A program made the position numbers and the translations under genes. Under the pieces are notes generated by a model. The model saw only the letters and a list, made by a program, of their open reading frames with translations. It was not told the origin of the DNA and made no database searches. A stretch of DNA of 44,419 bases from Deltaproteobacteria bacterium (GTDB lineage: Bacteria; Myxococcota_A; Polyangia; Polyangiales; Polyangiaceae). Every line of letters begins with the position of its first letter. Position 1 is the stretch's first letter. The stretch lies in contig VGRJ01000028.1 in the NCBI GenBank assembly GCA_016875405.1, positions 1-44,419 on the forward strand, written 5' to 3'. Shown in pieces: positions 37,193 through 44,419 of the stretch.

Positions 37193-38968
37193 ATGGCCAT
37201 TCTCGAACGACTTGCAGCAAGGCTCCTCGCGCTCGCGGCAGCCTCGTGCGCTCCGATGGAGGAACCGCGCACGTGTATCCCCGGTCGGACCCAAGCCTGC
37301 GAGTGCGACGAAGGTCTCGTCGGCGTGCAATCGTGCCGCGCCGACGGAAAAGGCTTCGGCGTGTGTGGTGGCTGCACTGCGAGCGCGGTGACGCCCTTCA
37401 CCGACGTCGCCCGGGACGTCGGGCTCGCCTACCTCGAGGCCGCCCCGCTCGACGGAGTCACGCCTTGCGTGGTCCCGGGATATTGCGAAATGAACCTGCT
37501 CACCGGCGGCGTTGCGATCGGCGACTACGATGGCGACGGCGGCCCCGACGTGTTCGTGAGCCGGCTCGGCGCGACGCCGCTGCTCTTTCGAAACCGTGGC
37601 GACGGCCGGTTTGACGATGTGACGGCGGCCGCCGGACTCGCCCTCGCGGCGAACTGGAACGGCGCCGCGTGGGGCGATCTCGACAACGACGGCGACCTCG
37701 ACCTGATGGCGCAGACCATTGGGAAAGGGCGGCACTACCTGTTCATCAACCAGGGCGACGGCACGTTCGTCGACGACGCGGTCGCGCGCGGCGTGGCGTT
37801 CGACAACGGCATCAGCAAGCTCGGCATGAGCGTGTCCGTCGGCGATTTCGACCGCGACGGCTGGCTCGACCTGCACCTCACCGAGTGGAGCATCAAGCTC
37901 GGCCCGCAGGCCGTCGACCCCAAGATCCCGGCGCACATTCGCCTGATGCGCAACCGCGGCGCTTCGGCCCCAGGGCATTTCGAGGACGTCACCGTCGCTC
38001 TGGGTGCGGTCATCGATCCGCCCGACGAGCTCGGCAACCGTCCGACGATGTACGGGTACGGCTCCGCGATCGCGGACTTCGACGGGGACGACTGGCCGGA
38101 ACTCGCGCTGTCGGGGGACTTCGGGACAAGCCGGTTCCTGTGGAACGAAGGCGGGACCTTCGCGGAGCGCACGCGCGACGCGGGCGTTGGTCGCGACGCC
38201 TTCGGGATGGGCTCGGCGATTGCAGACCTCGACGGCGACGGACAGCTCGACTGGTACGTGACCTCGATTTCGACGCTTCCGAATTGTCAGGCGACGAACG
38301 ATTGCGGCCATGGCGAGTGGGGCAACCGCCTCTATCGGTATGCGGGCGGGCGGCTCTTTGAGGACGTCGGCTACGACTGGCGCCTCCACGATGGGTTCTG
38401 GGGATGGGGGGCTGCGATGTTCGACTTCGACCACGACGGCGATCTCGATGTGGTTCAGACCAACGGCATCGCTTATCCGATCGTCCAACCCGGCTCGTTT
38501 TACGCGCACGACCAGGACCGCTTCTGGCGCAACGACGGCGGGACTTTCGTCGAGGCGGCGAGCGCGCTTGGCCTTGTGGATCTTCGGCGCGGCAAGGGCC
38601 TTGCCCTCTTCGATTTCGACCGCGACGGAGATCTCGACGTCTTCGTGGTGAGGAACGCCTCCGAGCCCTCGCTGTACCGAAACGACGTCGCGAAGGGGCA
38701 TTGGCTCAAGGTTCGCGTCCTGACCGATTCGGGCCGCGATGCGATCGGCGCGCGGGTACGGGTGACCTTGAAGAAGGGCGAGACCTCGCGGGTGGCGATG
38801 GTCGGTGTCGCTACGAATTTTCTGGGTCAGAGCGAGCCGACGGTGCACTTCGGGCTCGGCGACCACGGCGGCCACGTCGACGAAGTCGAAGTGCACTGGC
38901 ATGACTCGGGGAAGACTCGTGTCCTCTCGTCGGTTCCCGTCGATGACCTCCTCGTCGTCGACCCGTGA
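37193..38968 (+). CDS. FG-GAP/VCBS repeat lipoprotein with ASPIC/UnbV domain (paralog B)
   Basis: A 591-residue lipoprotein (lipobox AAASC near residue 19) with the six-Cys module CIPGRTQACEC / GVQSCRADGKGFGVCGGC, then FG-GAP/VCBS repeats (GDYDGDGGPDVFVSR, GDLDNDGDLDLMAQT, FDFDRDGDLDVFVVR) forming a predicted calcium-binding propeller, and a C-terminal ASPIC/UnbV domain (VHFGLGDHGGHVDEVEVHW). It keeps the CRTAC1-type arrangement (TPFTDVARDVGLAYLE) better than the other two copies. A GGAGG run lies almost against the ATG, closer than usual, so initiation may be weak. It follows the copper monooxygenase by 55 bp and may be co-transcribed. Confidence 0.9.
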   Translation: MAILERLAARLLALAAASCAPMEEPRTCIPGRTQACECDEGLVGVQSCRADGKGFGVCGGCTASAVTPFTDVARDVGLAYLEAAPLDGVTPCVVPGYCEMNLLTGGVAIGDYDGDGGPDVFVSRLGATPLLFRNRGDGRFDDVTAAAGLALAANWNGAAWGDLDNDGDLDLMAQTIGKGRHYLFINQGDGTFVDDAVARGVAFDNGISKLGMSVSVGDFDRDGWLDLHLTEWSIKLGPQAVDPKIPAHIRLMRNRGASAPGHFEDVTVALGAVIDPPDELGNRPTMYGYGSAIADFDGDDWPELALSGDFGTSRFLWNEGGTFAERTRDAGVGRDAFGMGSAIADLDGDGQLDWYVTSISTLPNCQATNDCGHGEWGNRLYRYAGGRLFEDVGYDWRLHDGFWGWGAAMFDFDHDGDLDVVQTNGIAYPIVQPGSFYAHDQDRFWRNDGGTFVEAASALGLVDLRRGKGLALFDFDRDGDLDVFVVRNASEPSLYRNDVAKGHWLKVRVLTDSGRDAIGARVRVTLKKGETSRVAMVGVATNFLGQSEPTVHFGLGDHGGHVDEVEVHWHDSGKTRVLSSVPVDDLLVVDP

Positions 38969-39063
38969 CATGACCCTCGCTCGCGAACCGCGGAAGAGCT
39001 TCGTTCGCTGGCGTCGAACTCCTCCATCGTGCTACCGTGTTTAGCATCGTGCCCGAAGAATCC

Positions 39064-39915
39064 ATGGCGACCGAAAGCGATCACCGACGCCGTGAGCCCG
39101 AGCGGCTCTACGCTGGCGGCACCGACAACAAACTCCTCATCGCGTTGCTCGCCGGCGCGGTGTTCGGGTCCGTCGGCACGTACGCTTACCTTTCGGGCAA
39201 CTATCGGTTCGTCGCCCCGGATAGGTACGACCAGCTTGTGCGCGGCACGGTTCCGGTGGCGGACACGGCGGTCGCGCCCAGGCCGCAAGCGACCCAAGAG
39301 ACGCCGCGCCAAGCGCCCGAGCGCTCGTCGGAGCAGGCCCCTCGCCAACAAACTCAGAGCCGCGGCGGCCCCGCGACGGGTGACTACATCGGGGGCGTCG
39401 AGAAGTTCGACCTCAAGGACTCGGCGACCCAGGGCCCCGAAAACGCTTCGGTCACCCTCGTCGAATTCAGCGACTTCGAGTGCTCCGCGTGCGCGCACTG
39501 GGAGCCCGAGATCAAGCGCCTCATGGACGAGCGAGCGGGCAAGGTCCGGCTCGTCTATAAGCACGCGATCCTGCCTGACCACATCAACTCCCGCAACGCC
39601 GCGCTCGCGGCCGAAGCCGCGAAGAAGCAGGGGAAGTTCTGGGAGTACTCGGCCGAGCTTTTCAAAGACCAGAAGTCGCTGCAGCGTGAGGACCTCGTGA
39701 GGCTCGCCGGCCAGCTCGGCCTCGACGTGACCAAGTTCAAGGCCGACATGGACGCGAAGGAGGCGAAGGACATCGTCGACCGCGACGTCCGTGAGGGCGA
39801 GCGCTCCATCGCTGGCTCCGAGAAGGCGGGCGTCCCTGCGTTCTTCATCAACGGCCGCCGCGCCGACGTGGCCTCGCCCGGCCAGCTCGCCGCGCTGCTC
39901 GACAAGGCGCTCTGA
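39064..39915 (+). CDS. Membrane-anchored DsbA-like thiol oxidoreductase
   Basis: A 283-residue protein with one N-terminal membrane span (about residues 23-43), a Gln/Pro/Arg-rich linker, and a DsbA-family thioredoxin fold. The active site is CSAC (Cys140, Cys143) in FECSACAHWEPEIK, and the cis-Pro loop is AGVPAFFIN. Such proteins form or exchange disulfides, or reduce them, outside the inner membrane. Its neighbours are Cys-rich lipoproteins, so oxidising or proofreading their disulfides is a likely job. ATG 39064 is preferred; a GTG at 39037 is in frame. The frame has no signal cleavage site, which suits an anchored enzyme. Confidence 0.9.
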   Translation: MATESDHRRREPERLYAGGTDNKLLIALLAGAVFGSVGTYAYLSGNYRFVAPDRYDQLVRGTVPVADTAVAPRPQATQETPRQAPERSSEQAPRQQTQSRGGPATGDYIGGVEKFDLKDSATQGPENASVTLVEFSDFECSACAHWEPEIKRLMDERAGKVRLVYKHAILPDHINSRNAALAAEAAKKQGKFWEYSAELFKDQKSLQREDLVRLAGQLGLDVTKFKADMDAKEAKDIVDRDVREGERSIAGSEKAGVPAFFINGRRADVASPGQLAALLDKAL

Positions 39916-41259: not shown

Positions 41260-41284
41260 CGCGAGGGGCGTACACTTGTCGAGA

Positions 41285-43057
41285 ATGAAGAGGTTTTCGG
41301 CGGCTTCGCTGATGCTGGGGCTCGGGGCGCTCGTCCTGGTCGCTCCGAGCTGCGGCTCCGAGGACAGCGCGACGCCGAGGGTCTGCGTCCCCGGACGCAC
41401 GGTGAAGTGCTCCTGCGACGACGGAGGCCAGGGACTGCAGTCCTGTCTGCTCGACGGCTCGGGCTTCGAGGCGTGTAGCTTCTGCAAGGCGAAGCCAGAT
41501 CCGTCGACGGAAGCGGGGTTCGCGGATATCACCGCCGCGATGAACCTGATGAACGGGTCTGGCCCGTGCCTTGGGTTCGACGACTTCGACGCCGACGGAG
41601 ACCCGGACCTCATCCTCTCGCAGGCCAAGACCGTCCACAACGGCAACACGTTCGCCCCGGCGGAGATGGTCATCTACGTCAACGAAGGTGGCGGCAAGTT
41701 CTCGGCGCAGCCGGTCGCGAGGCTCGCCGAGGGCTTTGCCATGCTGTGCACCACCGGCGATTTCGATCGCGACGGGCTGCCGGATGTCGTCATCGAGGTC
41801 GATCAATTCGACCAGCCCGGCAAGCTCCTTCTCCTTCGAAACAAGGGAAAGTTCGTCTTCGAGATCGACCCGGAGGGCTTCGACATCGTCCCGATTGACG
41901 ACTCGATGCTGCTCGCGCTCGGGACATTCGACTCCGACAACGACGGTTGGCTCGACGTCGTCCTCGGCCGCTCGCACGGTGGCGGACCTGCTTCCGGCGA
42001 GGCCTGCAAAATGCTCGAGAACGACTTCGTCTGCGAGAGCACGCCATACCCTGGCTCTCAGGGGCCGCTCCTGTGGCGAAACGTCACCGGGCGCTTCAAG
42101 CTCGACCTCTCGGCGTTCACCGGACCGTTTCCAGGCACCACGAACGCGCTCGGGTTCGCTGACTTCGACGGCAACGGCCTCACCGACATGTTCATGGCGA
42201 ACGACTGGTACTCAAACCACCTGCATCTGCAGATGTCCCCAGGCAAGTTCAAGCGGGCCGAGACGCTCCTCGGACTGAACCTGTTCAACCACGGCATGGG
42301 CGTCGGCATCAACGACTTCGATCGCGACGGACACCCCGACATCTACGTCGCCGATCTCGGGCCGAACAGCTTCTGGTTCGGCAAGCCCGACGGCACCTTC
42401 GAGAACCTGAACGCCGAGCTCGGGATCTCGGCCGTGACGCGCTACCACTCGAACTGGGCCACCATCGCCGAGGACTTCAACCTCAACGGCTACCCGGACC
42501 TCTTCGTCGCCTCGTCCGGCTTGGTGACGAACGATGAGGACATGGTGAAGATGGCGGTCGTGTCCTCCTCGCCGCTGAAAGAGGTCGTCCCTCAGTTCGA
42601 CATCTTGTTTTGGAATCGCGGCAACCGAGAATTTTTCCCGTCGACGCTTCCACATCGGCCGGGACAGCGCCCCGTCGTCGTGCTCGCCTCATCCGCGACA
42701 GCCGACTACGACGGCGACGGCGACCTCGACATCGTCACCGCCGCCGGCGACAATCTTCAGTTCCGCTTCCTCCGAAACGAGCAGCCTCCGGGGAACTTCC
42801 TGATGCTGAACCTCGTGGGCACGGCGTCGAACCCGCACGGCATCGGCGCCGTCGTCGACTTGATGAAGGGCGACGAGATGGTCCAGCGTCGCTACGTCGG
42901 GTCGGGCGGTTCCATCGGCAACTCCTGGAAGACGGTCCACTTCGGCCTCGGGACCGAGACGAAGGTCGAGCGCATTCGGATCCGGTGGCCTGCCGGCGGA
43001 ACGCAGTTCCTAAACGACGTAGACGGAAACCAGATCCTTCGCGTTGTCGAGCCCTGA
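41285..43057 (+). CDS. FG-GAP/VCBS repeat lipoprotein with ASPIC/UnbV domain (paralog C)
   Basis: A 590-residue lipoprotein (lipobox APSC near residue 23), then the six-Cys module CVPGRTVKCSC / GLQSCLLDGSGFEACSFC, then FG-GAP/VCBS repeats (FDDFDADGDPDLILS, NDFDRDGHPDIYVAD, ADYDGDGDLDIVTAA) and a C-terminal ASPIC/UnbV domain (VHFGLGTETKVERIRIRWPAG). It matches paralog A along its whole length (for example both have GTASN, then the FGLG motif and a final VVE) and lies in the opposite orientation. The start at 41285 gives the signal peptide; a TTG nine bases earlier is in frame. It follows the Cys-rich lipoprotein gene by 25 bp. Confidence 0.9.
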   Translation: MKRFSAASLMLGLGALVLVAPSCGSEDSATPRVCVPGRTVKCSCDDGGQGLQSCLLDGSGFEACSFCKAKPDPSTEAGFADITAAMNLMNGSGPCLGFDDFDADGDPDLILSQAKTVHNGNTFAPAEMVIYVNEGGGKFSAQPVARLAEGFAMLCTTGDFDRDGLPDVVIEVDQFDQPGKLLLLRNKGKFVFEIDPEGFDIVPIDDSMLLALGTFDSDNDGWLDVVLGRSHGGGPASGEACKMLENDFVCESTPYPGSQGPLLWRNVTGRFKLDLSAFTGPFPGTTNALGFADFDGNGLTDMFMANDWYSNHLHLQMSPGKFKRAETLLGLNLFNHGMGVGINDFDRDGHPDIYVADLGPNSFWFGKPDGTFENLNAELGISAVTRYHSNWATIAEDFNLNGYPDLFVASSGLVTNDEDMVKMAVVSSSPLKEVVPQFDILFWNRGNREFFPSTLPHRPGQRPVVVLASSATADYDGDGDLDIVTAAGDNLQFRFLRNEQPPGNFLMLNLVGTASNPHGIGAVVDLMKGDEMVQRRYVGSGGSIGNSWKTVHFGLGTETKVERIRIRWPAGGTQFLNDVDGNQILRVVEP

Positions 43058-43350: not shown

Positions 43351-44419
43351 GTGAAAAGCTTGGTAGCGCATCATCGCTGGGCGGCACGACTGTTCTGTCT
43401 TCTATCGCTCTTCCTCGTGGGCCTCGTCGCCTGCGCCGGAGACGGCAGCGAACCGAATCCCTCGGAGGTGTCGCTTACCGGCACGTCTGACGGTGGCTCC
43501 GCGAGCGCACCGACGGGCGTCGGAGGCGGAAACCTCCTCATCGGTCCGTGCGAGGACGGCGAGCAGCGCGCCTGTCACGTAACCCTTGGCGAGCACGAGG
43601 GCGTGCTGAGCTGCTTCGTTGGCGTGCAGGTGTGCGTCGACGGTGCCTGGTCGGCGTGCAAGGACGGCTCCGAGGTTGAGAAGGTCCCCGCGGACGATGG
43701 CAAGCCGCTGTCGCTCACCGCCGAAAAGGTCTGCGACGACAACCCGTGCGATCCGCGCTGCAGCAAGTGGGTCGAAGACGGCAAGTGGGTTGCGGATGGC
43801 TCGGTCTGCAAGTGGCCGTGGAGCTGGTCCGCGGACCCGAAGGCGAGCATCGACCAGGCAAACAAGGACGGTGCCGCGAAGGAGCCGTGTACGCACGGCA
43901 GCGAGTGCCACCAAAACCAGAAGTGCCAGGACCCCGCTCAAGGGAGCTGCTCGCACGACATCTGCACGAAGGGCGTCGGCCTCATCAAGGGCTGCGAGAC
44001 CAAGTGCGTCGACAAGATCTGCGACGAGAAGCCCCAGTGTTGCGAGAAGAAGTATACCGGCACCTGCGAGGTCGAGCCCTGCCTCACCTACAAGAAAGGC
44101 CTGACGAAGGACTGCGACCCCGACGTCAAGAAGACCTGCGACTGGGACAAGACGTGCTGCCCCTACAAGCAGTGGGAGACCTGCAAATACTGGGGCATCG
44201 TCGGCTACGAAGAGGTCTGCAAGTGGGTCGAGACCTACAAGTGTGGCTGGCGTAACTACTACATCTGCGGCTGGCGTTGGCGCGAGTTCTACATCTGCGG
44301 CTGGCGCTGGCGCGAGTTCTACGTCTGCGGCTGGCGCTGGCGTACTTTCTACGTCTGCGGCTGGCGTTGGCGCGAGTTCTACGTCTGCGGCTGGCGCTGG
44401 CGTACTTTCTACGTCTGCG
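43351..44419 (+). CDS. Cys-rich lipoprotein with C-terminal CGWRWREFYV tandem repeats (3' end outside window)
   Basis: The open frame begins at GTG 43351 after GGGGAAC and runs off the right edge, at least 356 residues. The signal has a lipobox LVAC with lipidated Cys28. A Ser/Gly/Thr linker follows, then a CEDGEQRAC / CVDGAWSACKDG part distantly like the six-Cys module of nearby lipoproteins, a Lys/Asp/Cys-rich region with CC and CxxC pairs (about residues 130-297), and from residue 298 a decapeptide repeat CGWRWREFYV: one 8-residue starter (CGWRNYYI), five full units, and more beyond the edge. The repeat is dense in Cys, Trp, Arg and Tyr. I recognise no family. A disulfide- and aromatic-stabilised surface fibre or adhesin is a guess from composition. 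Confidence 0.85.
   Translation, partial: MKSLVAHHRWAARLFCLLSLFLVGLVACAGDGSEPNPSEVSLTGTSDGGSASAPTGVGGGNLLIGPCEDGEQRACHVTLGEHEGVLSCFVGVQVCVDGAWSACKDGSEVEKVPADDGKPLSLTAEKVCDDNPCDPRCSKWVEDGKWVADGSVCKWPWSWSADPKASIDQANKDGAAKEPCTHGSECHQNQKCQDPAQGSCSHDICTKGVGLIKGCETKCVDKICDEKPQCCEKKYTGTCEVEPCLTYKKGLTKDCDPDVKKTCDWDKTCCPYKQWETCKYWGIVGYEEVCKWVETYKCGWRNYYICGWRWREFYICGWRWREFYVCGWRWRTFYVCGWRWREFYVCGWRWRTFYVC
44242..44419 (+). repeat. Tandem 30-bp coding repeat (CGWRWR[E/T]FYV)
   Basis: A degenerate 24-bp unit (44242-44265) is followed by five 30-bp units starting at 44266, 44296, 44326, 44356 and 44386, then the start of another at 44416. Units alternate Glu and Thr at position 7 (E, E, T, E, T), giving a 60-bp higher-order unit: 44296-44355 and 44356-44415 differ at a single base. 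This points to recent expansion. The array continues beyond the window. Confidence 0.95.

Follow-up and report, generated by a model that had tools for sequence, protein, structure and literature searches.

The array gene and its probable other half

The window, that is, the whole stretch of 44,419 nucleotides analysed here, is the entire contig C28 of a Polyangiaceae genome (G000). Close to its end a reading frame opens at a GTG (position 43351) and stays open to the last base. Since the window is a complete contig, the tandem array in which this frame ends is cut by the assembly, and not by a stop codon. The features of the region are the following.

39037-39915, forward strand: DsbA/thioredoxin-like protein with a CSAC motif, read by eye (Pfam Thioredoxin_4, 1e-23; DSBA, 1.9e-12)
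41276-43057, forward strand: FG-GAP/UnbV_ASPIC lipoprotein-like neighbour (Pfam), kept beside the array gene in genome G095
43351-44419, forward strand: 5′ part of the array lipoprotein gene, GTG start, running off the contig end and very probably continued at the start of contig C148 of the same genome (L039:2-1048), with synteny to L042/L005 on both sides
43351-43434, forward strand: signal peptide (from the translation) with lipobox LVAC (43423-43434) and lipid-anchored Cys28
43543-44160, forward strand: conserved Cys-rich N-module of a Polyangiaceae family, 71% identical to L005 and also aligned across the family (alignment A1)
44182-44419, forward strand: proposed outgoing strand of a hairpin, truncated by the contig end, with Cys gaps of 12, 8, 8, 10, 10, 10, 10 and 10
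44242-44265, forward strand: first CGW unit, CGWRNYYI, 8 residues
44266-44415, forward strand: five 10-residue CGWRWR(E/T)FY(I/V) units (Tandem Repeats Finder, unit reading)

That the protein is an exported lipoprotein, as originally predicted, was borne out by the lipobox, whose pattern was present in 38 of 46 homologous frames after near-identical frames had been dropped. Tandem Repeats Finder gave the array scores of 285 and 236, the top two of 17 rows in the window. The 10-residue units read, in order, CGWRWREFYI, CGWRWREFYV, CGWRWRTFYV, CGWRWREFYV and CGWRWRTFYV, and the next Cys codon lies at the contig end. The perfect 10-residue phase that had been claimed holds for these five units but not for the first one, which is 8 residues long. 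The last two 60-bp blocks (44296-44355 and 44356-44415) do differ at a single base, C at 44307 versus T at 44367, a synonymous Arg change. Variation among units by codon position was mixed, and was left out of the argument.

The protein of one relative, L005 (from Polyangiaceae MAG RH-23may17-336, and the same gene as G095:C21), is 1014 residues long, and its N-module is 71% identical to that of the window over 294 residues. Behind the N-module come the CGW units, which mostly alternate between 12 and 10 residues, then an array of CWWE units with 10 or 12 residues each, and finally the C-terminal domain. A search of the window's genome with the second half of L005 led to contig C148, which at its start carries YECWWEERYECWWELIKECW, with the last part of a second, unlike array of CWWE units (its Cys gaps, on the proposed return strand, end 8, 8, 13), and then a C-terminal domain 71% identical to that of L005. 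Gene order in G095 matches on both sides: FG-GAP, DsbA-like, two small genes, FG-GAP, array protein, and a lipoprotein with a sub-threshold DUF4215. Because of this agreement, C28 and C148 very probably carry opposite ends of a single gene, the middle of which is unassembled. A contig of G096, from the same genus, likewise begins inside the CWWE array; this right half, obtained in a class-wide profile search, has gaps of 10, 12, 10, 12, 12, 12, 10, 10, 8, 8 and 13.

Reading past position 44419, as had been proposed, thus yielded the C-terminus but not the number of units, owing to the assembly gap. A stop or frameshift just beyond the window had been considered as a possible refutation: neither was found in the window, or from the start of C148 to its own stop, the middle being a gap. 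As to the other concern, a repeat collapsed by the assembly, a gap of unknown length does sit inside the array.

The DsbA-like gene is linked to the array gene in G000 and G095, and was not found within the stretches of two more distant relatives, L040 and L041; its product is a possible helper for disulfides. Two FG-GAP/UnbV_ASPIC proteins (37193-38968 and 41276-43057), both conserved in G095, flank it, and G095 has one further, inverted copy upstream. On the reverse strand of L005 (5079-7220), the antisense of the arrays is open for 713 codons, which we take as a by-product of codon composition.

Relatives in Polyangiaceae and in large phages

The array protein gave no match in Pfam, NCBIfam or PHROGs and no significant one in the PDB, in agreement with the prediction that no named repeat family would fit. 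With Pfam thresholds relaxed to E 10, positions 44206-44418 of the window and both L005 arrays returned no family, thrombospondin type 1 included. The best PDB hit by sequence, a beta-porphyranase (E 0.018), was attributed to composition. A literature search with CGWRW returned no paper, and among the papers listed by other searches none was recognised as describing the array protein. Among 282 genomes of the phylum, the L005 arrays matched in six (G000, G095, G182, G218, G234 and G305), of which the last four were discarded by eye as low-complexity or antisense frames, one being a CRISPR-like repeat. A DNA pattern of tandem CGW codons matched in 49 of 108 family genomes; among the matches listed, CGW(R/H)(W/Y) units were read only in G000:C28 and G095:C21. 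Plasmids gave two weak records. Profile searches produced 173 matches from 377 phylum genomes and 150 from 289 class genomes, and those listed fell mostly in the vWA or the C-terminal part.

Outside the arrays the protein belongs to a wider, unnamed family of Cys-rich lipoproteins. The window protein had matches at E 0.001 or better in 69 of the 108 family genomes, and an alignment of eight members has several dozen invariant columns, most of them Cys. The array protein resembles the vWA-type Polyangiaceae members in its lipobox, N-module and C-terminal module (tblastn to vWA-type loci; 71% identity of C148 to L005), and several of their stretches share the downstream lipoprotein gene. It differs from them in its middle. 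The Pfam VWA domain (PF00092) scored above cut-off in 5 of the 7 relatives scanned, but Pfam returned no vWA or other family for L005, the window protein or the C148 part (the middle of the window gene being an assembly gap). The window and L005 came out as sisters (100/99) in a tree built from 47 N-modules, and this pair groups with L041 (genome G050) and L040 (G094), again with 100/99. Both L040 and L041 retain the vWA domain, and their middle is irregular and rich in Cys, Trp and Tyr; L041 has two near copies of CGYKYKWVNVKK, similar by eye to the later unit. In the other relatives sampled (L042, being the same gene as L005, was omitted here), different Cys modules replace the Trp/Tyr/Cys arrays. 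Two members of about 4,000 residues with vWA-like motifs (L079 and L083) were seen in a single genome, G013.

Scans of IMG/VR, one kind with the L005 arrays and another with alignment A3, brought up full-length homologues on four virus contigs of 211,097, 80,682, 47,640 and 21,270 bp. These four proteins have 772, 933, 804 and 835 residues, a lipoprotein-like start by eye, and no vWA segment in their sequences. Neighbours chosen for comparison with PHROGs, rather than every frame, matched a tail fibre (5.8e-98), a 2-aminooxy adenylosuccinate synthetase, a head maturation protease, an endolysin, a sigma factor, a ligase and an exonuclease. Peptidase_S77 and Terminase_6N were both found on the 211-kb contig and neither on the other three; Terminase_6N also matched in 6 of 14 control genomes. 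INPHARED gave no match. Polyangiaceae may be the hosts of these phages, as the shared gene suggests.

The phage array loci have a GC content of 31-42%, versus 69% for the window. Third-position GC, computed without Trp and Met, was 235/273 in the arrays versus 135/550 in the flanks of the phage copy L114, and 131/183 versus 224/557 in L115; no contrast between array and flank was present in L116 and L118, and a smaller one in L005 itself (295/322 versus 459/576). At the DNA level, the arrays of L115 share 88% identity with those of L005, while for the flanks of L115 the values are 68-69% (against L005) and 71-72% (against the window and C148). For L114, identity to L005 (arrays 78-80%, aligned flank pieces 74 and 79%) does not discriminate, and third-position GC does. 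GC-rich arrays inside AT-rich genes in L114 and L115, together with the identity contrast of L115, suggest that the array part was exchanged between the genes of bacteria and phages; alternatively, the arrays may have drifted slowly. Trees of the N- and C-modules did not resolve the direction of transfer between phage and bacterium.

Several other genes lie near the phage copies. On two related contigs a 2-aminooxy-adenylosuccinate-synthetase-like gene (phrog_1211; L117:8608-9597 and L118:7514-8503), which we take as a hint of diaminopurine DNA, is close to the array gene. A match to a phage endonuclease family (phrog_4645, L120:4513-5382) and a similar-looking reverse-strand frame (L120:11024-11857) also lie near it, and are possibly homing endonucleases able to help move the array gene. 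On the 21-kb contig, a second small lipoprotein-like frame is directly upstream of it (L119:3902-4180).

Mirrored cysteines and proposed pairing across the arrays

Distances between successive Cys in the arrays are mostly even: 8 of 8 in the window, 2 of 3 in C148, 37 of 39 in L005, 22 of 29 in G094 and 25 of 33 in G050, and in the phage copies 33 of 35 (L114), 23 of 25 (L115), 17 of 23 (L116) and 21 of 27 (L118). By comparison, 860 of 1636 gaps were even in 22 canonical members chosen from the 46 homologous non-window frames. Extended beta strands that carry their Cys on a single face would be expected to show such spacing. Aromatic residues favour the Cys face in the window, L005 and G050, and have no such preference in G094 (23 even, 28 odd).

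Starting from a central C-x4-C or C-x8-C turn, the Cys gaps of the seven complete arrays examined are much alike towards either end. For L114 the series from the centre is, on both sides, 6, 12, 10, 12, 10, 12, 10, 12, 12, 10, 12, 12, 10, 10, 8, 8, followed by 12 versus 13. Mirrored gap pairs amount to 18/19 in L005, 16/17 in L114, 11/12 in L115, 8/11 in L116, 10/13 in L118, 10/14 in G094 and 11/16 in G050. L005 and L115 mirror like L114, L116 and L118 deviate only beside the tip and at the base, and G094 and G050 match at most inner gaps and less so at the outer ones. The mirror fails at the outer gaps of G094 and G050, near the tip in L116 and L118, and at the base gaps (12 versus 13), all of which counts against a perfect hairpin. 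The central gap is odd in all seven, either 5 (CDWWSC, CDWWGC, CNFFWC, CDFFWC) or 9 (CWKWGWNWGC, CAGWGKWKWC). The two halves are equal in length within one residue in every case (207/208, 179/180, 125/126, 93/94, 113/114, 104/104 and 121/120 for L005, L114, L115, L116, L118, G094 and G050), and Cys numbers from base to base, counted as gaps plus one, are all even (40, 36, 26, 24, 28, 30 and 34).

When the order of the gaps was shuffled 20,000 times per protein, the observed match was reached in at most 0.04% of shuffles for each of the seven. Among 18 control proteins chosen from the same 46 frames, 16 gave p >0.2, and the sisters L059 and L066, with six matched pairs, p 0.004 and 0.008. As the repeats are related by descent, these p values, and the pairing counts below, overstate independence. 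A scan for long mirrored runs in the frames of all loci gave L005 (18), L114 (16), L115 (11) and G094 (8). It also picked up an unrelated plasmid frame (7) and, on the antisense strand of L005, a further frame (9), which means that short mirrored runs alone prove little.

In the mirrored register of L005, 48 W:Y and 16 Y:Y pairs were counted among 79 Cys-face pairs. Aromatic pairing in the mirrored register was above chance in five of the seven proteins (hypergeometric P 4e-5 or less each), and not in G094 and G050 (P 0.18 and 0.40). Cys-face positions were aromatic with aromatic, or other with other, in 154 of 164 cases (38 distinct unit pairs, five proteins). At the one clearly variable position of 10-residue units, Fisher's test gave p 0.014, for units related by descent; in 12-residue units, left position 8 and right position 4 were mismatched in 7 of 12. 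Over the twelve 10-residue rungs listed for L116 and L118, left position 7 and right position 5 covary (I with I, F with R, V with V or Q).

The two arrays also changed in copy number together. L116 and L118 have 322 of 325 C-terminal-domain residues in common, yet each array of L118 is longer by two units: CGWRWREFYV rises from one copy to three, as does CWWELRYVYE on the opposite side, the two being mirror partners in both proteins. This supports the predicted change in array copy number. The 10-residue unit, first described as the repeat itself, looks like half a rung whose partner is the second array of CWWE units, absent from the window; units of 8 and 12 residues also occur, in mirrored places.

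The proposed fold and its alternatives

The simplest reading of the mirrored spacing is a two-stranded antiparallel ribbon with Cys opposite Cys. We infer the fold, the disulfides and the surface display of the array protein from its sequence, and on this basis its middle is probably one giant antiparallel beta-hairpin. The chain would run out along the CGW array, turn at a short aromatic loop (C-DWWS-C or C-NFFW-C, and C-x8-C in two relatives) and return along the CWWE array. Each Cys would face its mirror-image Cys, giving a ladder of ~12-20 disulfide rungs; disulfide cross-linking, as originally suggested, is plausible, and the DsbA-like gene nearby speaks in favour of it. Between rungs, aromatics of the same face would form cross-strand pairs in the manner of a tryptophan zipper, with beta-branched and charged residues on the opposite face. 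The ladder of stacked Trp and Arg first imagined finds no support here, as the mirrored register sets Trp opposite Tyr on the Cys face and leaves Arg on the other. The N- and C-modules would come together at the base, and the hairpin would form a stiff lance of roughly 30-70 nm (at 0.33 nm per residue) with its aromatic tip away from the membrane. Points against this reading are the AlphaFold2 models described below, the aromatic pairing at chance level in G094 and G050, the mismatched position in 12-residue units, and the two control sisters with mirrored gaps.

That the arrays instead pair between molecules, the outgoing array of one chain with the returning array of another, in antiparallel dimers or a cross-linked matrix, seems unlikely to us. 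The mirrored spacing would suit any antiparallel pairing, and so would charge in L005 and the four phage proteins, whose outgoing half is rich in Arg/Lys and whose returning half is rich in Asp/Glu (Arg/Lys to Asp/Glu, 19/6 versus 1/39 in L005). This contrast is however missing in G050 (31/3 and 30/3) and weak in G094, and the short, Cys-bounded central turn of all seven arrays favours a fold-back within one molecule. An equally low probability is given to beta-solenoids or amyloid-like fibres in which each 12+10 unit pair makes one coil with stacked Cys. AlphaFold2, given the CGW array of L005 alone, did produce an all-beta coil with a 22-residue period (pLDDT 80.2, pTM 0.78), which aligned to a SufBCD chain (VIA-align Z 15.7, rmsd 3.2, 187 aligned). 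The five models nevertheless span pLDDT 67-80, Foldseek found nothing at 0.001 (best E 0.31), and neither mirrored spacing, nor halves of equal length, nor an odd gap at the centre would follow from a solenoid. One study reports that AlphaFold2 turns more than 40% of random perfect repeats into beta-solenoids (PMC11795689), a known artefact, and the model was set aside as deciding neither way. The full-length model was poor (pLDDT 40.6). A reduced array binding metals, as had also been suggested, or serving as a redox buffer, is very improbable: Cys does make up 9-12% of the arrays, but it is unclustered, mostly 8-12 residues apart, in a protein with an export signal, and neither the even spacing nor the mirror, which require no metal, would be explained.

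Returning to the single-chain hairpin, residues an even distance apart share their pairing type, so that Cys and Trp/Tyr pairs may all use non-hydrogen-bonding sites. These are the sites where tryptophan zippers work, and disulfides are another common means of holding a hairpin (PMC7915549). The array protein would share with these designed peptides the alternation of aromatics on one face and cross-strand pairs at the same type of site (PMC7915549). Unlike them, it is natural and would have strands of ~90-210 residues, with a Cys ladder and with pairs that are mostly Trp:Tyr and not Trp:Trp. Tachyplesins and theta-defensins are small disulfide-laddered hairpins whose Cys are mirrored about a short turn; they have few disulfides, as opposed to the 12-20 rungs proposed here from two unlike tandem arrays of a lipoprotein. 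Mussel foot decapeptide-repeat proteins have 10-residue repeats rich in aromatic and cationic residues, and we know of no mirrored second array or Cys ladder in them. The principle of a hairpin pinned by disulfides or Trp is familiar from short peptides; to our knowledge it has no precedent at such scale, the literature not having been searched for giant cystine-ladder hairpins as such. We give about an even chance to the complete proposal, a natural giant hairpin of ~12-20 rungs and ~30-70 nm, made of two unlike arrays changing in step, and serving as a surface lance of Polyangiaceae and of large phages that exchange the array part.

As to function, the proposed geometry would hold a small aromatic tip 30-70 nm off the membrane, and our best guess is an adhesive or recognition lance; the adhesin of the original prediction is likewise a guess. 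We would guess at adhesion or contact recognition in the bacterium and, in the phages, at remodelling of the infected-cell surface, perhaps for superinfection exclusion, though we regard these functional readings as less likely than not. The phage role would fit a phage-borne allele of a host-type surface lipoprotein.

If the hairpin is real, it would be a protein counterpart of covariation in RNA stems, with a fold readable from cysteine spacing alone. It would also be a natural stiff rod of variable length, in which the coordinated copy-number change of the two arrays is directly testable. Finally, this shared surface protein links large uncultured phages to the Polyangiaceae, with signs of gene-segment exchange between them.
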